Shown piece by piece: positions 28,321-38,929 of a DNA stretch of 64,000 nt; position 1 is the stretch's first letter, and each line of letters starts with the position of its first letter. A program made the position numbers and the translations under genes. This DNA is from Weeksellaceae bacterium (lineage in GTDB: Bacteria; Bacteroidota; Bacteroidia; Flavobacteriales; Weeksellaceae). The notes below the pieces were generated by a model. That model made no database searches. It was not told the DNA's origin and was given only the letters and a program-made list of their open reading frames with translations. The stretch lies in assembly GCA_949788275.1 (NCBI GenBank), contig OX460916.1, positions 930,001-994,000 on the forward strand, written 5' to 3'.

Positions 28321-30042
28321 TTGAAACCAACAACCAATCCTATTCTTTTATTATCACTAATTTTCTTTTTTAGTATACCATCTTATGCTACAGTTGAGAA
28401 GATAAATTTAAATTTTGAGCAATTTATTGAGCAATATAAAAATACTCCCTTAAGTATTTCTGAGTTAAATAGCGTATTAAAACATGATGGGGTATTCCGT
28501 TCAATCGAAGAAGAGACAATTTTTTATACGTTAATTGCCCATTCATATGCTAATCAATACGATAAAATAAACCCTAAAAGCGATGATTTTTTTTTAAAAT
28601 CCTTAAAAATTTGGAAACATGAAGACAAAACCTCGCCCATTTATGTTTGGAGCATTATTGAATATGCAAACTACCTCTATAATTATAGAGATCTTCAAAA
28701 AGCCATGTATTATTTTACTGAAGCTTCCGAATTGCTTAAAAAAATAGATTCCAATAGCCTAATACTTTCTTGTTATATTCACAAGTCTATAGGCTTCTTT
28801 TTAGGGACTATAGAAGAGATAAGTCAAGGAATCGAGTTTTTAGAGAAAGCGAATAGAAATGCTGGGCATGACTCATCATGTAGAGCAGAAATATTAAACA
28901 ATATTGGTCTTTATTACTATCGTTTAGACAATAAAAACAAGGCAATGGCCTATTACGAGCAAGCAGAGAAATTCGCCCTTCAGGCAAATGATAGTCTCCG
29001 TTATGCTAAAATTCTAGGTAGTAAAGCCGATTTTTATAGCGATCAAGGGTTATACAAGCGAAGTTTAAATTATCTAGAAGAGAATTTGGCCATTTCTGAA
29101 CGTATACAATCATTAATGCATCTAATGTTTGTTAATCGGCAGCTAGCCCTTCTCTATATGAAGATGGAAGATTACAAAAGTGCCGAAAAATATTTAAACG
29201 AAGCCCTTCGGATCTCAAAAACGAAAGATTATCTACGTTCTGATGAATACGATATTTTGAAACTCAAAATTAATTTAAATCAAAAGCTGAACAAATCAAA
29301 TGAAGATAATCTGATTTTTAAACGCTTATTTGATTTAGAGGATTCCATTAAACTAACCGATGGGGAAAATGCAGTGAACTTACTGAATGTGAAATATCAG
29401 AAAAACATGTACGAACAACGTATTCAACTCAATCAATCTATACTTGAAAAACACAAATTTCAAAATCAAATCATCATCGTTATCACCTTACTCTTATTCA
29501 TTATATTAGGAATATTGATACGTGCATATCGCTTAAGAATGAAAAATAAAGCTATTGCTTTTAATCAAGAAATACTTCAATTGGAGGTAGATAAATTGGT
29601 GTCAGACAAAAGATTAGCTGAGACTAGTAAGGACCTCAATTCTTACCGTACTTATTTGTATGAAAAAAAATTGCAAATAGCAGAACTTAATCATCAAATA
29701 GAGATTCGAAATAAAAATTCTGCAGCAACAGCCTTACTCACAGAAAACAAATTGGAAGATTTATTAAAATCTCACCTAATGACTGAAGAAAGCTGGCAAA
29801 GTTTTAAACAAGCTTTTATTAAAGAGTACCCCATTTTTTATACCTATCTTAAAAAACATTATCCCAATCTAACAGAATCTAATCTGCGAATTATTTTCTT
29901 AACGAAATTAGAATTAAATAATTACGAAATCGCTAATTTATTAGGGGTTAGTTATGATGCTGTAAAAAAAGCGAAGCAACGCCTCAAGAAGAAAGTTGAA
30001 GAAGATTCTGTGGAAGATTTTATAAGAGGTTTAGATGAATAA
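28321..30042 (+). CDS. Membrane-bound TPR regulator with C-terminal helix-turn-helix
   Basis: The product has 573 residues. A signal peptide (ILLLSLIFFFSIPSYA) is followed by periplasmic TPR repeats (about 100-340; NNIGLYYYRLDNKNKAMAYY, RSLNYLEENLAISERI), one transmembrane helix at about 381-403, a coiled coil, and a cytoplasmic HTH (about 516-560; LRIIFLTKLELNNYEIANLL, GVSYDAVKKAKQRL). This one-component design lets a periplasmic sensor act directly on DNA. The start is a TTG at 28321. No in-frame ATG would preserve the signal peptide. Divergent from the exopolysaccharide operon with the GGACA array between, it is the likely local regulator. A second protein of the same architecture is encoded at 46414. 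Confidence 0.88.
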   Translation: MKPTTNPILLLSLIFFFSIPSYATVEKINLNFEQFIEQYKNTPLSISELNSVLKHDGVFRSIEEETIFYTLIAHSYANQYDKINPKSDDFFLKSLKIWKHEDKTSPIYVWSIIEYANYLYNYRDLQKAMYYFTEASELLKKIDSNSLILSCYIHKSIGFFLGTIEEISQGIEFLEKANRNAGHDSSCRAEILNNIGLYYYRLDNKNKAMAYYEQAEKFALQANDSLRYAKILGSKADFYSDQGLYKRSLNYLEENLAISERIQSLMHLMFVNRQLALLYMKMEDYKSAEKYLNEALRISKTKDYLRSDEYDILKLKINLNQKLNKSNEDNLIFKRLFDLEDSIKLTDGENAVNLLNVKYQKNMYEQRIQLNQSILEKHKFQNQIIIVITLLLFIILGILIRAYRLRMKNKAIAFNQEILQLEVDKLVSDKRLAETSKDLNSYRTYLYEKKLQIAELNHQIEIRNKNSAATALLTENKLEDLLKSHLMTEESWQSFKQAFIKEYPIFYTYLKKHYPNLTESNLRIIFLTKLELNNYEIANLLGVSYDAVKKAKQRLKKKVEEDSVEDFIRGLDE

Positions 30043-30057
30043 AATAATTGGTTAAGC

Positions 30058-30639
30058 TTAGTAATACAATCGAAAACCCATTCGTTGGCACAGGGCATGA
30101 TGCTTTTCAAACAATGCTTCAACCAATTCCACTACATTATCTTCCGCTTGGTATAGCGCAAAAAAATACTGGTCTAATACTGTACTCAATGCAGTCGACT
30201 CTTTTACATAGCCCGAAACTGCTTTAGCACCCGTAATATCTAAGAAAAATTGAAACGTTTCTTCTTCTAAGTCGAGCATTTTGGTATTGGCAAAATGAAC
30301 AATTTTTCCTTTTAGCTTTCCTTCGAATAGTAGGGCAACCTCTTCCAAACTATATAAGTAACCATCAATTTCAATTTGACTATCCACACCATCCACCACC
30401 AAATAAATAATTTTATAAACCTTAAAGTTTCTGTCTTCATAAACCAGCGTACTAAGCCTTTCCTCAAAGCCCTCCATGGTATCACAGGTTTGGTAAACAT
30501 TGGTAATACCAAAATTAAGCGCTAAGTGCGATAAAAAATTGAGTATCACACTTGGCTGATGATGATCAACATCATCAACAAGCTCTAAGCAAAACAGCTT
30601 AAAATCATCAAACTCCTCGTCGTATAATTGTATATCCAT
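30058..30639 (-). CDS. Hypothetical protein resembling DUF6642/CHAT-like family, probable loss of catalytic residues
   Basis: This 193-residue soluble protein has no signal or membrane segment. From memory it resembles DUF6642, a caspase/CHAT-like family. The order is an N-terminal Rossmann-like half (YQTCDTMEGFEERL), a strand IIYLVVDG where the family has a His in an FHG context, the helix GYLYSLEEVALLFEG, a strand KIVHFANTKML where the family has a Cys (xGSCSTL), then FQFFLDITGAKAVSGY. Both presumed catalytic positions appear substituted. The family link is my inference. The ATG at 30639 is chosen over the upstream in-frame ATG at 30672 because the intervening DNA is a 22-bp palindrome containing a perfect -7 box. 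Confidence 0.6.
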   Translation of the reverse strand: MDIQLYDEEFDDFKLFCLELVDDVDHHQPSVILNFLSHLALNFGITNVYQTCDTMEGFEERLSTLVYEDRNFKVYKIIYLVVDGVDSQIEIDGYLYSLEEVALLFEGKLKGKIVHFANTKMLDLEEETFQFFLDITGAKAVSGYVKESTALSTVLDQYFFALYQAEDNVVELVEALFEKHHALCQRMGFRLYY

Positions 30640-30644
30640 CTGTA

Positions 30645-30667
30645 CAAAGATAAACAAGTTTATCTTT
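30645..30667 (-). promoter_or_regulatory. -7 box overlapped by a 22-bp perfect palindrome
   Basis: AAAGATAAA (30646-30654) and TTTATCTTT (30659-30667) flank a 4-base centre. On the minus strand the right arm contains TATCTTTG (30645-30652), an exact TAnnTTTG match directly before the 30639 start codon. The layout suggests an operator lying on its own promoter. Confidence 0.55.
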
Positions 30668-30680
30668 TGCACTGCTTATT

Positions 30681-30980: not shown

Positions 30981-31367
30981 ATGAAACTTTATTTTGTATT
31001 CAAGCCTAGCTTTATTTTTTACGCATTTGCATTATTGTGTATTATTAGCTGTAAAAATAACGTATTAACCAATCATGAACCCAAGACCATGCAACAACCT
31101 AAGATAACCCAAGACGATCTAGTAAAAGAAAAGCCTTTGTCTATAAAAACAGATCATGGTTATATCGATATGTATGCTGTGATTATCTATACAGAAGATG
31201 CTTCTGCCTTAAGGTCTAAAGGAATTTTGGTTCAAACAGAAACAAGCAAGTTTGTAACCGCACTCATTAAAAAGGATGATTTGGTGATTTTAAACACCAT
31301 GGAAAGTGTGGAGTCGGTGCATTTACCTCAACACGAGTATCCAACAACAAATGATTTATTGAATTAA
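30981..31367 (+). CDS. Lipoprotein homologous to the propeptide of the downstream subtilase (candidate free inhibitor)
   Basis: This 128-residue lipoprotein has the signal IFYAFALLCIISC and a lipidated Cys at about 24. Its C-terminal half aligns without gaps to residues about 84-133 of the subtilase encoded 51 bases downstream. Shared blocks are IIYTE, LVQTE, FVTAL and DD, with about 25 identities in 54 positions counted by eye. In the protease this region is the N-terminal propeptide (I9-like, RRM-type fold) that folds and inhibits the enzyme. A lipid-anchored free copy could protect the producer's own envelope or act as a chaperone in trans. This role is inferred. The gene is very probably co-transcribed with the protease. 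Confidence 0.82.
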   Translation: MKLYFVFKPSFIFYAFALLCIISCKNNVLTNHEPKTMQQPKITQDDLVKEKPLSIKTDHGYIDMYAVIIYTEDASALRSKGILVQTETSKFVTALIKKDDLVILNTMESVESVHLPQHEYPTTNDLLN

Positions 31368-31380
31368 ATAACGAATAAAT

Positions 31381-31417
31381 AATTAACACAAAAAAATTAA
31401 CACAAAAAAAATTAACA
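31381..31417 (+). repeat. A-rich tandem leader repeat before the protease start
   Basis: ATTAACA occurs three times in a row, each separated by a run of A. The last copy directly precedes the ATG at 31419. It may act as an A-rich translation enhancer, the usual substitute for a Shine-Dalgarno site in this phylum. The copies could also arise by slippage. Confidence 0.5.
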
Positions 31418-31418
31418 A

Positions 31419-34400
31419 ATGATTAAAAATTTACAATCCTTGGGTGGTTTACGCCTAAATGTAAAACGAAGTACAGCACTTTATTCTTCCCTATTCTTAT
31501 TATTGTCTGGCATTGGGATGGCTCAATATAAAATTGACCCTCTGTTCGAAACGATGTTACAGGATCAAAATAGTAAAAAACTACAAGAAGTTCCTGGAAA
31601 TGGTTTAATTCAAGAATCTGAATTAGCGGTTTCAAGTATTATAGCTCCTGATGGAAGTGTTAAAGAATTGTACCATGCAATTATTTATACAGAGAATCCG
31701 CAAGCCTTAAAAAACGCTGGTTATTTGGTTCAAACAGAACACAAAGGATTTGTTACAGCGCTTTTATCGTCTGATGATATCAACAGTCTTAGAGATAATA
31801 ATACGGTGTCTTCTGTAATGAGCCCTAAAATTGACCGTCTTAAGAACCAAGATAATGTGATTACCAGTGGCGCAAATTTGCTTCATAATGGCACTTTAAA
31901 TAATATGAGCTATACCGGTAAAGGAGTGTTAGTAGGAATTTTTGATACGGGTATCGATTTTACACACCCTGATTTTATCGATCCTGTGAATAAAACAAAA
32001 TCAAGAATCTATAAAATTTGGGACCAGACCTTAACGGCGAAAGCAGGTGAAGCTGCACCCGCTGGGTTTGATTTTGGTGTAGAATATAACCAAACACAAA
32101 TTAATGATGAGATAGATGGTAGTCCTGCCAACTTTGTTCGCCAATTAGACAAACATGGACATGGTACTCATGTTGCTGGTACAGCTGCCGGAAATGGAGC
32201 AGCACTGGAGGGGACACCTCATAAGGGAATGGCCCCAGAAGCAACATTGGTCATTGTAAAAGGAGGTGATGGCAGTTTTCCAACCACAAATACCATTGCT
32301 GCGATGGAATATTTTAAAAAAGTATCTGCTGAACTAAATCAACCTATTGTTGTGAATATGAGTATCGGTGGACAGGGTAGTCCACATGATGGAAAAGCGG
32401 CCCATGAATTGGTAATCAATGAATTTACGAAATCTGGACCTGGTCGCGTTGCTGTTATTTCTGCTGGGAATGAGGGGGATGGAAATATTCACCAACGATT
32501 GGAATTAACTCCTAGTGGAAAAAAGACGTTTGAAATTGAAATTGATGAATATAGAGAAAATTTTACAGGCTCTTTATTCTCTTTTGTTGGATTTGCTAAA
32601 GGAGATGAAAATCAAACAAATATCCGAGCTAAACTAACAATGCCTGACGGAAATATATACACCCAAGAAGCAGGGAGTCAAGGGACATACTATATTAAAA
32701 ATGAAAAAGGGACTAATGCTGCTAAATTTGATTTATACAATTTCGTTGATTCTGCATCTAAAAAACGTTATGTCCAATTGGTTGCTACTCGATTAATTGC
32801 TATGGATTTTCAAGGGACGTATAATTTAGAAATTGAAAATTTATCAACAAATCCTTTAACATTTGACGGTTGGCTGGCTTCTACAAACTATGACTTACAT
32901 GATATAACCCTTCCAAAAGGTGATAATAACTATACAATAGGATCACCTGGTACGGCTGACGAAGCGATAACTGTAGCCAACTATGTGGCTAGTAATGCGT
33001 TTGCTGTCAATAGTAGTGTGGCTGATATGAATGGTACGTATACTGCACCGTATAAAATAAATTCATTAAATTCAAGCAGTTCTAAAGGCCCTCGTGCCGA
33101 TGAAGCACTAAAGCCCGATATTACAGCGGCTGGTACTTTCGTGATTTCTGCTAAACCTAAGAATACCAATGATTCTTATATCATCGACGGGAAATATTAT
33201 TCTCAAATGACAGGAACGAGTATGTCTTCTCCAGCTGTAGCAGGTGGTGTAGCTTTGCTTTTACAAGCAAACAATACCATTACTGCCAAAGAAGTGAAAA
33301 AACGTCTAACCGATAATGCGACTAAAGATAACTTTACGACGAACCAATACACCAATGAATTTGGGTATGGTAAGATGAACATCTATAGAGCCGTTAATCA
33401 AGAGATAAATAAAACGAATGGAAATTCTTCATGTCCATTAAGTAGCAATGTGATCCTTTCAAATGATATAGTTGATTACGTGATAGGAAAGGATTATGGC
33501 GTGAGTTTATTAAATTATTCAACTTCGAAAGTTGCCGTGAAACTTACCTCAAATGTAACGGGTCGTTTAGGGAGTGCCTTGGTGTTTCTAGGTGATTATA
33601 ATAAACATCCTGAAGCAGTTGTCCCGTTAATGATAGAAGTTCGAAAAGTCGGTGAAAATGGAAGTGTTGGTGAGCTTTTAGGTACTAAAACGGTCGCCAA
33701 TGTAAAAACATTGGAACAATCGGGTTGGAACGCTATTAATTTTTCAGATTTAAATATTCCCGTTACAGCTGGTCAAGATTTTTATCTTACGCTTTCTGCA
33801 TTAGCTGGGAATTTAGTATTAGTGAGTGATACAAAGGATATTACAAATCGAACGTATATTGCAAGACCTGGTGAGGATTATAAGCTAAATGGAAATTACA
33901 ATGCTAAGGTACGCGCATTAGTTTATGAAAACGAGGTTGGTGTGAAACAATTAGCAACAGCGAGTAAAGAATCTAAACTAGCTGTTTCTTTAGGAGATAA
34001 TTACTTTATCAATGGGTGTGAAATGATTACCAAAGTAGAAGGTTCTGGAAATTCACCTGTGAATGGAAGTGTAACTGCTAAAGCATGGGTAGACGCTACA
34101 TTGAAGGACTTTGTTGGTCGTCGAGTGGAAGTGAAAGCAGATGATAATAATACAACGGCTACTGGAAAAGTTACTTTGTATTTTACGCAAGCTGATTTTG
34201 ACAAATTCAATGAAACCGCAACCGTAAAATTACCTCAATCCGCGACAGATACAGAAAATAAGAAAAATATTATTGTTCATTATTATGCTGGTACAAGTGC
34301 TGACAATTCTGGGTCACCAGAGAGTTATTCTTCTCCTGTTGTAAATACGGCTATTGCTGCTGATAAAGCTGTTTGGAATGATTCGTATAAATATTGGGAA

Positions 34401-34712
34401 GTTACCGTAGATGCTATCGGTTTTGGGGGCTATTTATTATCGACCAATAAAACCTTAGCTACAGCTGATAACACATTGAATCAATTAGCCATTTACCCGA
34501 ACCCAGTTCAGAATGAGTTGAATGTTCAACTGCCGAGTAATATAAAAGAGGCACAATTAAGATTAGTGGATGTCACTGGACGTACTGTGTTAACTGGAAA
34601 AGTAACCAATTCTTCGTCTAAATTAAATGTACAGTCATTATCGAAAGGTGTTTACATCATGGAGATTTCAACAACACAAGGTACAACAACTAAAAAAGTA
34701 ATTAAAAACTAA
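31419..34712 (+). CDS. Secreted subtilisin-like serine protease (S8) with T9SS sorting domain
   Basis: This is a 1097-residue protease exported through Sec and then T9SS. The signal peptide ends GIGMAQ (about residue 36). The propeptide is about 84-135. The S8 triad is Asp176 (GIFDTGIDFTHPDF), His248 (KHGHGTHVAGTAAG) and Ser601 (GTSMSSPAVAGG), with the Asn of the oxyanion site in ISAGNEGDG. A long insertion between His and Ser holds a beta domain (about 370-500). Beta-rich domains follow the catalytic part, and the last 75 residues are a type-A T9SS signal (IYPNPVQNELNVQL...KGVYIMEIS...KKVIKN). It lies 51 bases after the lipoprotein carrying a copy of its propeptide and is closed by a strong terminator. 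Confidence 0.95.
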   Translation: MIKNLQSLGGLRLNVKRSTALYSSLFLLLSGIGMAQYKIDPLFETMLQDQNSKKLQEVPGNGLIQESELAVSSIIAPDGSVKELYHAIIYTENPQALKNAGYLVQTEHKGFVTALLSSDDINSLRDNNTVSSVMSPKIDRLKNQDNVITSGANLLHNGTLNNMSYTGKGVLVGIFDTGIDFTHPDFIDPVNKTKSRIYKIWDQTLTAKAGEAAPAGFDFGVEYNQTQINDEIDGSPANFVRQLDKHGHGTHVAGTAAGNGAALEGTPHKGMAPEATLVIVKGGDGSFPTTNTIAAMEYFKKVSAELNQPIVVNMSIGGQGSPHDGKAAHELVINEFTKSGPGRVAVISAGNEGDGNIHQRLELTPSGKKTFEIEIDEYRENFTGSLFSFVGFAKGDENQTNIRAKLTMPDGNIYTQEAGSQGTYYIKNEKGTNAAKFDLYNFVDSASKKRYVQLVATRLIAMDFQGTYNLEIENLSTNPLTFDGWLASTNYDLHDITLPKGDNNYTIGSPGTADEAITVANYVASNAFAVNSSVADMNGTYTAPYKINSLNSSSSKGPRADEALKPDITAAGTFVISAKPKNTNDSYIIDGKYYSQMTGTSMSSPAVAGGVALLLQANNTITAKEVKKRLTDNATKDNFTTNQYTNEFGYGKMNIYRAVNQEINKTNGNSSCPLSSNVILSNDIVDYVIGKDYGVSLLNYSTSKVAVKLTSNVTGRLGSALVFLGDYNKHPEAVVPLMIEVRKVGENGSVGELLGTKTVANVKTLEQSGWNAINFSDLNIPVTAGQDFYLTLSALAGNLVLVSDTKDITNRTYIARPGEDYKLNGNYNAKVRALVYENEVGVKQLATASKESKLAVSLGDNYFINGCEMITKVEGSGNSPVNGSVTAKAWVDATLKDFVGRRVEVKADDNNTTATGKVTLYFTQADFDKFNETATVKLPQSATDTENKKNIIVHYYAGTSADNSGSPESYSSPVVNTAIAADKAVWNDSYKYWEVTVDAIGFGGYLLSTNKTLATADNTLNQLAIYPNPVQNELNVQLPSNIKEAQLRLVDVTGRTVLTGKVTNSSSKLNVQSLSKGVYIMEISTTQGTTTKKVIKN

Positions 34713-34779: not shown

Positions 34780-34812
34780 AACCCAATGATATTTTTATCA
34801 TTGGGTTTTTTT
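34780..34812 (+). terminator. Rho-independent terminator of the protease operon
   Basis: AACCCAATGATA and TATCATTGGGTT form a 12-bp perfect stem around a short T-rich loop, followed by a run of T residues, about 70 bases after the protease stop. Confidence 0.92.
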
Positions 34813-34974: not shown

Positions 34975-36519
34975 TTATTTCTCGATTAAGCGACGTCTTA
35001 ATCCGCGAACTGATTTCCCTTGTAAAAGACGATAAAAGATGACTTTTCGACGGTAATTTATCCGCCCAAAATGGTGGCTAAGGACATAGATTTGAATCAA
35101 AATACCCGCTAAAACAACGTACCCAAATACATTTTTTATCGAGACCATCATCGCATTGATTTGCAGATTTCTATAAACGCTTGGTGTCGCAGTGTCTATG
35201 GTACTTCCAAGGTTGTTGATACTCGTCCACTGGAATTTATATTGCGCCCACGATAGGATAGCCGAGCCTATAGCAACTGAAGCAAAGGTGCGGACTAAAA
35301 GCATGATGCCTATGGCTGACATCATGTCTTGCATATTCAGACGTGCTATAGCGTAATACCAAATACCGATAAAGAGAACCGTCATCGCAAATCCACGTAA
35401 AATCATAGGAAAATACCAAATGCTGTAATTGAGTTCAGGGACAATCATAAAATAGAGTAGGAGCGTGTAGAGGGTATAGGAAAAGAAACCGATAAAGACA
35501 TAGATTTTTAAAGAAATTCTTTTTCCTAAAAAAACACCCGTAAATACTGCTGCTAAGAGAATTCCAGGAATCATCATTAAATAAAATTGATTCTGGTGGA
35601 TTAAATCGTACCCTAAAACACCAATGGTAAAGGTGTTTAAAATAACATTGGTGGCTAGAAATAGCCCTAGAAAGATAAGCATTAATAAACCATGGCGTAT
35701 ATCGCTAAACTGCATAATCTTCATGCTTATAAAAGGCCTTTTTAGTCGAGTTTGGCGGTAGATAAACCAAGTCGTCAGAACAAAGAAGGCGACGAAAGCG
35801 TAGACTATTTTTCCCGATGATAACCAGCCTTGTTGTTTGGCATACGTAAGCGAATAGGCCAAAGATAAGGAGGCTAATAGGTACAAGAGTAGGCTAAACC
35901 AATCGACAAACCAAAGCGGGACAGGCTTAGCAAAATGTTTGTTATGTTGAAAGATAATGCAGAGTAATGCACAGAAGCCAAAGGTAGCCGTTAAGATGAT
36001 AGGGGCGTATTCCCAACCATCGGCCGACGCAATTTTAAATAAGAACCAGTTGGCAACTTGGGTATATATTAAGATTAAACTGTAAAAGACCATATAGAAA
36101 CGGATCCTGTTTCCATCTTTGGATAGAATGGCTAACATGGGTAAAATAAGCTCCATCATGACCGCCATTTTGAAAAAACCGATAATAACCGTACTTAAAA
36201 TAATGACTTCGGCATTATCTGTGGTGCCACAAATAAACGTAAAAATAGCCATGATTGTAAAACCAAAAACCATGATCTGCTTACTCTTGAAAAACATTTT
36301 TATCCGAATAAAAATAGGAACAATGGCCGCCATTCCAATGGTGTTGGCATAATTCGCCATCATTACATCTTCGGTTAAAATTCCGGCACCACCTACGATG
36401 TACTGTAAATTATTAATAAATACACCATTGGCCGCTGTTATAGGGAAGAATAAAAAGAGAATAAGAAGCAACTGAAGGATTTTGGGAACCCAGCTTGCAA
36501 ATGGTCCTTGGTTGTACAT
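34975..36519 (-). CDS. MFS transporter, DHA2/EmrB-like inner-membrane efflux pump
   Basis: This 514-residue protein has about 14 hydrophobic helices, as in DHA2-type drug:proton antiporters. It begins with the cytoplasmic lead QGPFASWVPKILQL and ends with a basic tail. The classic MFS motif A is not strictly conserved, as is common for Bacteroidota members. It is the last gene of a TolC-HlyD-MFS operon, starting 5 bases after the HlyD stop. With those partners it forms an EmrAB-TolC-type tripartite pump. The substrate is unknown, but an AraC regulator gene just upstream suggests an inducible pump. Confidence 0.88.
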   Translation of the reverse strand: MYNQGPFASWVPKILQLLLILFLFFPITAANGVFINNLQYIVGGAGILTEDVMMANYANTIGMAAIVPIFIRIKMFFKSKQIMVFGFTIMAIFTFICGTTDNAEVIILSTVIIGFFKMAVMMELILPMLAILSKDGNRIRFYMVFYSLILIYTQVANWFLFKIASADGWEYAPIILTATFGFCALLCIIFQHNKHFAKPVPLWFVDWFSLLLYLLASLSLAYSLTYAKQQGWLSSGKIVYAFVAFFVLTTWFIYRQTRLKRPFISMKIMQFSDIRHGLLMLIFLGLFLATNVILNTFTIGVLGYDLIHQNQFYLMMIPGILLAAVFTGVFLGKRISLKIYVFIGFFSYTLYTLLLYFMIVPELNYSIWYFPMILRGFAMTVLFIGIWYYAIARLNMQDMMSAIGIMLLVRTFASVAIGSAILSWAQYKFQWTSINNLGSTIDTATPSVYRNLQINAMMVSIKNVFGYVVLAGILIQIYVLSHHFGRINYRRKVIFYRLLQGKSVRGLRRRLIEK

Positions 36520-36524
36520 AATGG

Positions 36525-37574
36525 TTATTTCAGGGTAATATTAACATTCATTCCTGCACGTAATTGGGCTAAGTCTTTGGCCGAATTGTTCGCTGTAAAC
36601 TCGATTCGGACAGGAATTCGTTGTTGAACTTTAATAAAATTACCGGTTGAATTATCCACCGGTACAGCGGCATAACGAGAGCCTGTTGCGGCAGAAATGG
36701 CTGTAATTTCGCCCTCGAAGGTTTTCCCGTCTAGTGCATCCACCATCACATTCATTTTGTCGCCAATGTTAACTTTATGCATTTGTTTCTCCAGAAAATT
36801 TGCGGTAACCCAAGTCTGTCCATTTAAAACAATGGTGGCAACTTGTTGTCCGGCTTGTATTAACTGGCCGTCACTAATAAGCCTTCTTCCCATAATGCCG
36901 TCATACGGAGCTGTAATTACGGTGTAGGATAAGTTGAGCCTCGCCATATCCAACATCGATTTGGTGCGTTTTATTTCGGCGTCAATAATATCGTAACGCC
37001 CTTCGGCTTCGGTAATCGATAAATTAGCAGTGCTTTTTTGCTTGATCAAAACATCGTAAGAGGCTTTTAAGGCTTGGTATTCCGTTTTTACCTGGTCGTA
37101 TTGTTGACGCGTAACCGCTTCGGCGGTTAGCAGATTTTCGTAGCGTTTTAGATTTTGTTCGGCATTCCATAATCGGGCTTTAGCCCCTTCAATATTGGCA
37201 TCAACAACAGAAACATTATTAGAAACGGTATTTACACTCGATGAAGCGACATGGCGTTGAGCTTTTGCGTTCATGTAGGCCGCTTCGGCTTGATCGACTT
37301 GGGTGATGATTTCACGGTTGTCGAAAATAACCAATGTATCCCCTTTTTTAACCGGTTGATGTTCTATAAAGCGAATTTCTTTAATATAGGCGGGAATGCG
37401 TGTATTAATGGGGTTAATAAATTGCTCCACTTGGGCAGAATTGGTGTAGTTATCATCCATAATATGAAAGTATTTGGTGATAATAAAATACAGGCCCACA
37501 CAGATAATCATAAAAGTGCTGACGTTGGCCATAATTAAGCGGATTTTCTTTTTGTTTCGTTTAGTCTTTTCCAT
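36525..37574 (-). CDS. HlyD/EmrA-type periplasmic adaptor of an efflux pump
   Basis: This 349-residue membrane-fusion protein starts with a basic segment and one transmembrane helix (VSTFMIICVGLYFIITKYF), which fits an EmrA-like signal-anchor rather than an RND-type lipoprotein adaptor. A biotinyl-lipoyl half-motif (RIPAYIKEIRFIEHQPVKKG) is followed by a helical hairpin (about 80-200), the second lipoyl half (VITAPYDGIMGRRLISDG) and the beta-barrel domain. It lies 9 bases after the TolC-family gene and 5 bases before the MFS gene, so the three are co-expressed. Confidence 0.92.
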   Translation of the reverse strand: MEKTKRNKKKIRLIMANVSTFMIICVGLYFIITKYFHIMDDNYTNSAQVEQFINPINTRIPAYIKEIRFIEHQPVKKGDTLVIFDNREIITQVDQAEAAYMNAKAQRHVASSSVNTVSNNVSVVDANIEGAKARLWNAEQNLKRYENLLTAEAVTRQQYDQVKTEYQALKASYDVLIKQKSTANLSITEAEGRYDIIDAEIKRTKSMLDMARLNLSYTVITAPYDGIMGRRLISDGQLIQAGQQVATIVLNGQTWVTANFLEKQMHKVNIGDKMNVMVDALDGKTFEGEITAISAATGSRYAAVPVDNSTGNFIKVQQRIPVRIEFTANNSAKDLAQLRAGMNVNITLK

Positions 37575-37583
37575 GGGAATTGT

Positions 37584-38897
37584 TTATAGCGTACCAGTGG
37601 TTTTAATGAGTTTATAGTATTGAAATAACACGGCAACTTGTGCATTGCTTAATTGCAATTCGGCAGAAAGTTTTTCGTTGGATGCATCGATCATATCGAT
37701 CAAGAGCGCTAATTGATTCATGTATTTTGCTTCAATGATTTTATAATTGGCTTTGGCGAGGTTTCTGCTTTCGTCGTATATAGCCGCTTGTTGAATAGAT
37801 TCTTTGAATTTGATATAGGCCGATTCAACCTCAATATCCAAGTTTTTTTCTTGCAATACCTGAGCCTCACTCACCATATTTAATTGAAATTCACCTTGCT
37901 TAATTTTGGTTTTGGTCTTATACAATTGATCGATGTTATAGGAAATGGATACACCAACATTCCATGTGTTGGAATAGACATCCATAGGAACAGCTTTGTT
38001 TAACAAGGGGCGTTGCATAGAATAACCAGAAAATAGGGCGACGGTTGGAATTTGATCGGTTTTAATAATCTCTATTCCTTTCTTAGCCATATCGATGGTG
38101 GTTTGAGACGACTTTATAACGGGGCTGTTTTCTACAGCGAGTTGTTTATAGAAATCTTTATCTTGCTCCAGCATTCCATAAGGGGCAATGGGCTGTGTTA
38201 TAATTTCGGTTTGATGCGGTAATCCTAAAGCAACAACCAATTGATAGTTGATGATATGGCGGTTATTTTTAATGGTTAATAGCGCCTGATCTAAGCTTTT
38301 GAGCTGTAATTCGGCCCGAATAACCTCGTTATGAGTCACCATACCTTGTTCATAGAATGTACGAATGTTTTTCATTCGTTCTTCGGCTAACTGACGGTTT
38401 TGCTGGTACACTTCTTCTTGATTTTGAAGCTTTATAAGGTCTAAGTAGTTCGAGATAACAAGGAATTTAATAGCCTGTACATCTTTTTCTAAATCGAGCT
38501 CGCCCAATTGTACTTGCAGCTCTTCGGCTTCAATCGCTTTTTTTACCAAACCGCCTTTATAGACTAATTGCGTAGCTTGAAGGGCAAAATTATTGCCAAA
38601 ATGAGGCATCTCGGCCGTCATCACCTTACTCCAGTCGCCATCTAATATTAAGGCATCGCTGAGGTAAAATGCATTGGCATCAAATTTTACATTGGGTAAT
38701 TTTTGAAGCTGTGCTACTTCCACCTTTTGTTTATCCACCTCAAGTTTCTTTCGTCCTACTTGTAAAACCGGATGATTGGCCATGGCGAGTTGTGTAATTT
38801 CCTCAATGCCGAGTGTTCGTTGTTCCGTTTGAGCAAAGATCACTTCGCTACTACCAACAACGAATAGAGCGACCAATAGAGCGTCCCTTAGTTTCAT
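37584..38897 (-). CDS. TolC-family outer-membrane efflux protein
   Basis: This is an outer-membrane channel of the tripartite pump. Two repeats of long helices are visible (LGIEEITQLAMANHPVL and the second at about residue 240), with KLEVDKQKVEVAQLQKLPNV typical of OEP domains. The frame is open to 38924. However, a perfect -7 box (TAAATTTG on the minus strand) covers 38922-38929, so transcription should begin near 38914. The ATG at 38897 then gives a good signal peptide (MKLRDALLVALFVVGSSEVI, then FAQ). The alternative ATG at 38915 would be leaderless. Confidence 0.9.
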   Translation of the reverse strand: MKLRDALLVALFVVGSSEVIFAQTEQRTLGIEEITQLAMANHPVLQVGRKKLEVDKQKVEVAQLQKLPNVKFDANAFYLSDALILDGDWSKVMTAEMPHFGNNFALQATQLVYKGGLVKKAIEAEELQVQLGELDLEKDVQAIKFLVISNYLDLIKLQNQEEVYQQNRQLAEERMKNIRTFYEQGMVTHNEVIRAELQLKSLDQALLTIKNNRHIINYQLVVALGLPHQTEIITQPIAPYGMLEQDKDFYKQLAVENSPVIKSSQTTIDMAKKGIEIIKTDQIPTVALFSGYSMQRPLLNKAVPMDVYSNTWNVGVSISYNIDQLYKTKTKIKQGEFQLNMVSEAQVLQEKNLDIEVESAYIKFKESIQQAAIYDESRNLAKANYKIIEAKYMNQLALLIDMIDASNEKLSAELQLSNAQVAVLFQYYKLIKTTGTL

Positions 38898-38921
38898 GAA
38901 TCGTAAATTAAGCATAGAGTG

Positions 38922-38929
38922 CAAATTTA
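38922..38929 (-). promoter_or_regulatory. -7 box TAAATTTG of the efflux operon
   Basis: An exact TAnnTTTG match on the minus strand. No TTG at the usual -33 spacing is visible, which would fit a promoter that needs an activator such as the adjacent AraC protein. This element sets the probable start of the TolC gene. Confidence 0.5.

Follow-up and report, generated by a model that had tools for sequence, protein, structure and literature searches.

A putative lipid-anchored stand-alone prodomain encoded beside a predicted T9SS-exported Csp-like subtilase in a Weeksellaceae bacterium

Introduction

The KLIKK proteases of Tannerella forsythia are metallo- and serine proteases secreted by the type IX secretion system (T9SS). 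Each of their genes is directly preceded by the gene of a small lipoprotein (potempin), which ends in about 50 AT-rich bases, and inhibition of the respective protease by this lipoprotein has been reported (PMC4404884, PMC7296668). In Streptococcus pyogenes, the gene next to that of the secreted protease SpeB encodes Spi, an inhibitor described as an analogue of the propeptide (cited in PMC2873492). Small proteins with the fold of subtilase propeptides that inhibit subtilases have also been described, namely POIA1, the yeast peptidase B inhibitor, SPI-1, TgMIC5 and SUB1-ProM, the last of which adjoins subtilase genes (PMC6993865). Most of what is known about how bacteria that export broad proteases through the T9SS keep their periplasm safe comes from Tannerella. 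Here, we describe a gene pair from a Weeksellaceae bacterium, located in a stretch of 64,000 nucleotides (contig OX460916.1, positions 930,001 to 994,000; in the following the window), in which a lipoprotein gene with homology to a subtilase propeptide lies directly upstream of the gene of the respective T9SS-type subtilase.

Results

Homology of the lipoprotein to the protease propeptide

The pair consists of two open reading frames (ORFs) of 128 and 1097 amino acids, which are located on the same strand and in the same frame (Table 1). A preliminary description of this DNA had placed a lipoprotein ORF 51 bases upstream of a T9SS subtilase; the coordinates, the strand, the lipobox, the domains Peptidase_S8 and Por_Secre_tail and, elsewhere in the genome, the T9SS channel protein SprA were all found. 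The small ORF is a separate gene which is homologous to the propeptide of the protease and lacks a catalytic domain. By eye, about 25 identities over 54 residues had been counted in a gap-free alignment, and this homology was confirmed: an ungapped block of 53 residues, starting with YAVIIYT in the lipoprotein and YHAIIYT in the propeptide, contained 26 identities, and the best ungapped 53-mer in 60 shuffled lipoproteins reached 15. In BLASTP, lipoprotein and protease were aligned with 55.5 bits (E=5e-14, 33/94 identical residues). When the whole genome of the bacterium was queried with the lipoprotein, it matched only itself (5e-83) and the propeptide of this protease (3.4e-10). Its N-terminus is basic and is followed by a hydrophobic stretch and Cys24 (IIS-C).

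The core of the lipoprotein was modelled by AlphaFold2 (AF2) with a predicted local distance difference test (pLDDT) value >90, and its secondary structure elements follow the order E-H-E-E-H-E, which is identical in the protease's own propeptide in the zymogen model. The first-ranked Foldseek match was the CspB prodomain (4i0w_A, prob 1.00, E 0.012, root mean square deviation (rmsd) 2.7 over 64 columns); further matches were subtilisin propeptides, POIA1 and the ASP chaperone ORF2. The E-values are modest, which is common for domains of such a size. Profile comparison with hhalign connected the stand-alone proteins with the propeptides (probability 99.4%, E 7e-22) and with a set of I9 propeptides (probability 89.5). 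The lipoprotein is thus predicted to have a Csp-type prodomain fold. It had no match in Pfam and hence scored below the gathering score of PF18425 (CspB_prodomain). Two other stand-alone proteins matched this model weakly (best 0.0077), and one partner protease (L117) passed it with 25.7 bits at a cut-off of 25 bits. For PF05922 (Inhibitor_I9), neither the lipoprotein nor the protease propeptide gave a match at E<=1, and no model in the Pfam and NCBIfam scans names the stand-alone proteins. A PADLOC match of the lipoprotein (E 0.008) was judged to be due to chance.

The partner protease

The larger ORF encodes a subtilase (Peptidase_S8, 4.8e-46) with a Por_Secre_tail (2e-15). Among the NCBIfam models, the T9SS tail TIGR04183 scored above its cut-off; the nearest others were CspBA/CspC, far below their cut-offs. 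Judged by this C-terminal domain and the T9SS genes of the genome, the protease is most probably a type A cargo of the T9SS. An active enzyme is expected, because all three residues of the catalytic triad (Asp176, His248 and Ser601) are intact. Alignments and the zymogen model agree that amino acids 36-142 constitute a full prodomain of its own. This model (mean pLDDT 68, thus of moderate confidence) superimposed on CspB (4i0w) with a template modelling score of 0.78-0.79 on the target and an rmsd of 3.8, and a beta-rich insertion takes the place of the CspB jellyroll. The same genome contains two further tandem pairs of S8 protease genes (G000:C1:2577384-2580726 and 1110039-1113108), none of which was seen to have a stand-alone copy of a propeptide next to it.

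Co-transcription of the two genes had been assumed in the preliminary description. Since the gap between them lacks a terminator and a hairpin with a T run occurs only after the protease gene, a two-gene operon is likely.

Occurrence of the pair in the genus

In 14 genomes of the genus, both genes were present in three and neither in eleven. Lipoprotein and protease genes are separated by 51, 24 and 32 bases in the three pairs, and the neighbours differ at all three loci: a DUF6642 protein and an efflux set in the window, a short-chain dehydrogenase/reductase and an acetyltransferase at the second locus (G092, L031) and yet others at the third (G125, L032). The two other lipoproteins are 41-43% identical to that of the window, with an invariant lipobox cysteine. 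As both genes are present or absent together, and this in differing neighbourhoods, they behave as one unit in the genus. Candidates from three further genomes (G164 with a 28% match, G034 and G071) were dropped as weak; in G164 the small gene is not located beside a protease gene.

Occurrence in Bacteroidota and beyond

A scan of contigs with the lipoprotein sequence alone yielded no matches; loci in named records were obtained by a scan with a protease alignment. At the level of the order, a search with a six-row alignment found the propeptide family only in the family of the window and a stand-alone copy only in the window's own genome. The resulting impression of a narrow trait was overturned by the search at the level of the phylum, which revealed short copies adjoining proteases in distant lineages, including Melioribacter-like genomes. 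A wider profile (A6) was then applied to two orders, with 98 and 116 genomes, and to 395 genomes sampled across the phylum; matches were called by the profile only, and neighbouring genes were disregarded. Among the 395 genomes of the phylum sample, 22 from ten families contained a short frame matching the profile, and two more had weak matches. Altogether, 50 distinct short frames were found in Bacteroidota, and 49 of them have an S8 frame as a neighbour on their own strand (the short frame is upstream in 44 cases and downstream in 5); the only unpaired one is located at the end of a contig. Within the 49, one frame (L201, 1801-2364) is the frameshifted start of a protease and not a stand-alone gene. 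The partner proteases carry S8 domains, and most have T9SS-type tails, recognized by Por_Secre_tail or by related models of the C-terminus and in some cases with scores under the curated cut-off. Further pairs occur in records of candidate division KSB1, where the adjacency is not independent evidence because these loci were fetched via the protease. Conservation beyond this strain, for which the preliminary description had called for a genome search, was supported by three genomes of the genus, by the short frames of the phylum and by KSB1.

Some single loci deserve mention. One KSB1 contig (L115, 3598-9885) harbours two stand-alone prodomain/subtilase pairs in tandem. In another genome (G758; L099, 5086-5459), the stand-alone lipoprotein is split over two frames by a frameshift or a sequencing error, with an intact protease. 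A record titled 'Limnohabitans sp. MAG' (L111) contains a Csp-like protease about 38% identical to that of the window over the full length and is probably a mis-binned or mislabelled Bacteroidota contig. In KSB1 (L118, 4126-6299) and Mastigocoleus testarum (L119, 4117-6256), an S8 protease lacking a signal peptide is immediately followed by a small, likewise signal-less prodomain-like gene, possibly a cytoplasmic counterpart that is perhaps akin to PopC-PopD. The Pfam model I9 matched almost exclusively long frames in 198 Bacteroidota genomes, and no clear stand-alone I9 gene was found among them.

Evolution of the stand-alone copies

On a tree of 100 sequences (89 columns), the label 'stand-alone' requires 3 changes, compared to 33 in shuffles. 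Because the label clusters in this way, the stand-alone genes are old lineages and not products of repeated recent duplications. The group of the window branches together with propeptides from its own family (97, starred), a placement that gives a hint of a second origin for this group. The approximately unbiased (AU) test of all stand-alone sequences as a single clade gave a p-AU of 0.43 on the 89 columns, and a single origin was not rejected.

The C-terminal tail and the lipid anchor

All 43 aligned stand-alone proteins reach the P1-equivalent position and end 0-13 (median 2) residues past it, so that their tails are predicted to extend to the position of the S1 site. The register was set by hhalign to the I9 set, in which the subtilisin BPN' propeptide forms one row. 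For CspB, labelling of the active site is blocked when the full-length prodomain is supplied in trans. Versions lacking P3-P1 or P4-P1 do not block it, and CspB with such a tail-less prodomain in trans is a folded, labelable enzyme (PMC3567191). By analogy, the tail would be needed by an inhibitor and unneeded by a pure foldase. Given this requirement in CspB, its retention in the stand-alone proteins fits inhibition better than a mere role in folding.

The lipoprotein is probably located at the periplasmic face of the outer membrane. Acidic signals for surface export after the lipobox cysteine have been defined in other genera (QKDDE, SDDFE and SDDDD; PMC5080379), and the periplasmic face is favoured because such an acidic run is missing in CKNNVLT.

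Table 1. Positions of the features of the gene pair in the window.
Feature	Position	Strand	Basis
Lipoprotein gene, stand-alone prodomain (trans-propeptide), 128 aa	30981..31367	+	ORF; homology to propeptide of next gene; AF2 core pLDDT >90; Foldseek top match CspB prodomain
Putative type II (lipoprotein) signal peptide, aa 1-23	30981..31049	+	read from sequence; Cys invariant in alignments A1, A5 and A6
Lipobox Cys24, predicted acylation site	31050..31052	+	sequence; CKNNVLT, without acidic run at +2 to +6; export-signal rule PMC5080379
Lipoprotein segment matching protease propeptide	31173..31331	+	26/53 identities; secondary-structure order as in zymogen model
Lipoprotein C-terminal tail H114-N128; P1-equivalent ~T122, 6 residues before end	31320..31364	+	hhalign register to subtilisin BPN' propeptide; alignment of 43 stand-alone proteins
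Intergenic gap, 51 bases, AT-rich, without terminator	31368..31418	+	sequence; terminator scan
T9SS-type, Csp-like subtilase (S8), 1097 aa	31419..34712	+	Pfam; NCBIfam; zymogen model vs CspB 4i0w
Sec signal peptide of protease, aa 1-35 (estimated)	31419..31523	+	read from sequence
Own propeptide of protease, aa 36 to ~142	31524..31844	+	alignments A2 and A4; hhalign to stand-alone proteins E 7e-22
Catalytic triad Asp176, His248, Ser601	31944..33221	+	invariant columns of alignment A4
Beta-rich insertion in catalytic domain, jellyroll-like as in CspB; limits approximate	32484..32882	+	model strands aa 356-488; Foldseek match to CspB
Por_Secre_tail, T9SS C-terminal sorting domain	34491..34703	+	PF18962 57.3 bits; TIGR04183 53.9 bits
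Terminator-like hairpin, 12 pairs, then T run, 3' of protease	34780..34807	+	terminator scan

Beside the pair, the window encodes upstream a tetratricopeptide repeat protein (28321-30042), which is likely a regulator and whose C-terminus weakly resembles sigma-70 region 4, and a DUF6642 protein (30058-30672, 262 bits) divergent to the pair. On the minus strand, a convergent set (34975-38924) has the appearance of an efflux system, consisting of a transporter resembling the major facilitator superfamily, a HlyD-like adaptor and a TolC-like protein.

Discussion

The explanation that we prefer, with some reserve, is that the lipid-anchored trans-prodomain plugs the active site of the protease and so protects the cell envelope while the enzyme passes to the T9SS. 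The lipoprotein would be an independent copy of a Csp-like subtilase prodomain, lipidated and held in the outer membrane, and would be made from a shared transcript just ahead of the protease. Anchored in this way, it could plug protease molecules that mature prematurely or come back to the cell surface; proteolysis would thereby be blocked until the enzyme leaves through the T9SS, or upon its return. This explanation rests on the homology, the predicted fold, the pairing in many lineages, the lipobox, the tail extending to P1 and the intact triad and propeptide of the protease; from these we infer binding, inhibition, a periplasmic location, self-protection and co-transcription. Since pairs of this kind are also found in distant bacteria, the pairing is probably a widespread means of self-protection against the cell's own enzyme. 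A more general proposal, for which the chances appear to us about even, is that a hitherto undescribed, widespread family of lipid-anchored trans-prodomains guards T9SS-exported Csp-like subtilases in Bacteroidota and KSB1. The cis copy would mature the enzyme and leave with it, the trans copy would stay in the envelope, and the signal-less version (L118, L119) would do likewise for cytoplasmic subtilases.

Several observations weigh against the preferred explanation. The CspB prodomain supplied in trans also restores folding (PMC3567191), and in ASP-ORF2 and PrcB-PrtP, which are likewise encoded by adjacent genes, the partner is needed for an active protease. The periplasmic orientation follows only from the missing surface-export motif, which was defined in other genera. 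The protease already carries an inhibitory propeptide, and a second copy may look redundant. Moreover, close relatives of the protease in Chryseobacterium and in another genus of the family have no lipoprotein gene upstream, and the lipoprotein is therefore not essential for this class of enzymes; the Chryseobacterium relative has a protease that shares 92-94% identity with those of C. cucumeris and Chryseobacterium sp. S0630, which assigns the window to this family as well.

Lif foldases serve lipases as external chaperones, and the anchored prodomain might similarly help the protease to attain or maintain its native state in the envelope, with inhibition as a transient or secondary effect. 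The folding activity of the CspB prodomain in trans fits this role. So does ORF2 of Aeromonas sobria, the product of an adjacent gene, which is both chaperone and inhibitor (half-maximal inhibitory concentration 84 nM; PMC5638518) and whose complex was among the Foldseek matches, and so does PrcB, a lipoprotein whose gene precedes that of the subtilase PrtP and which PrtP requires (PMC8167434). The lipoprotein gene also precedes the protease gene and would be expressed first. All aligned proteases retain their own propeptide, however, whereas ASP has none, every stand-alone protein keeps the tail that CspB requires for blocking and not for a folded, labelable enzyme, and the Chryseobacterium relatives manage without the lipoprotein. 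We consider a chaperone function the main alternative, although an unlikely one. A by-product of a partial duplication of the 5' end of the protease gene, decayed to a small ORF, would look like a single short gene beside its apparent source, and the AU test neither excludes nor proves any number of origins. This is the least probable of all explanations, as ORF and lipobox are kept in three species at the given identity and in three different neighbourhoods, about 49 homologous genes occur in other families, essentially all of them paired, and the clustering on the tree points to old genes.

Two further alternatives were considered. Flipped to the cell surface, the lipoprotein might hold or tune the mature protease and have no part in guarding the periplasm; many Bacteroidota lipoproteins are exported to the surface, and dentilisin is held there by lipoprotein partners (PMC8167434). 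Neither CKNNVLT nor the corresponding sequences of the two closest relatives (CQNKSIK and CHSNQAI) contain an acidic motif at +2 to +6. Type A cargo is normally anchored by a route of its own, which also counts against a tether of this kind, and we regard it as improbable. A foreign protease of a host or competitor could be the target, with the subtilase gene connected only by linkage, and stand-alone propeptide-like inhibitors elsewhere do act on several subtilases (PMC6993865). The homology is specific to the prodomain family of the partner, the gene always adjoins one for such a protease and a lipid anchor is predicted, all of which makes a foreign target very improbable.

As a conserved and recognizable gene pair, the arrangement makes the question of periplasmic safety testable across many species and provides a signature by which cognate inhibitors of secreted subtilases can be recognized from sequence. 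It also allows the action of one prodomain fold in cis and in trans, i.e. folding versus inhibition, to be compared in a clean system.

Comparison with known systems

The closest solved fold to the lipoprotein is the prodomain of the clostridial Csp proteases (PF18425), which acts in trans as chaperone and inhibitor, and CspB with its active site is also the closest solved fold to the protease. The CspB prodomain is the N-terminal part of the protease itself, whereas in the window an additional, separate and putatively lipidated copy exists. In ASP-ORF2, the neighbouring gene encodes a protein that occupies the active site with its C-terminal tail and serves both as inhibitor and as folding helper (PMC5638518), but ASP lacks a propeptide and the ORF2 gene lies downstream, while the protease of the window has its own propeptide. 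PopC-PopD of Myxococcus xanthus resembles the pair, by its description, in that a subtilisin-like protease is restrained by a dedicated protein partner. Unlike the protease described here, PopC lacks a signal peptide and does not belong to the T9SS cargo, and the signal-less pairs of L118 and L119 may be closer to it. The stand-alone propeptide-like inhibitors named above are eukaryotic and not lipidated, and no significant sequence similarity has been reported among the classic three. SpeB is a cysteine protease (C10) of a system without T9SS, and in the citing source Spi is not described as a lipoprotein.

With the KLIKK/potempin systems, the locus has in common that the gene of a small lipoprotein immediately precedes that of a T9SS protease. 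Judged by the descriptions, it is set apart from them in that the six KLIKK lipoproteins have no significant mutual similarity and are not described as copies of propeptides. No potempin was recognized among the sequence or fold matches in the PDB, a search that included no direct comparison with potempin sequences. A literature search that covered few subscription journals yielded no description of a lipoprotein that consists of the prodomain of a subtilase itself, or of how widely such a lipoprotein is distributed. The preliminary description knew of no account of such a self-protection module, and this holds in part: the principle is already known from KLIKK/potempin, SpeB-Spi and SUB1-ProM, and what appears to be new is the source of the inhibitor, namely the subtilase's own prodomain family, and the breadth of its distribution.

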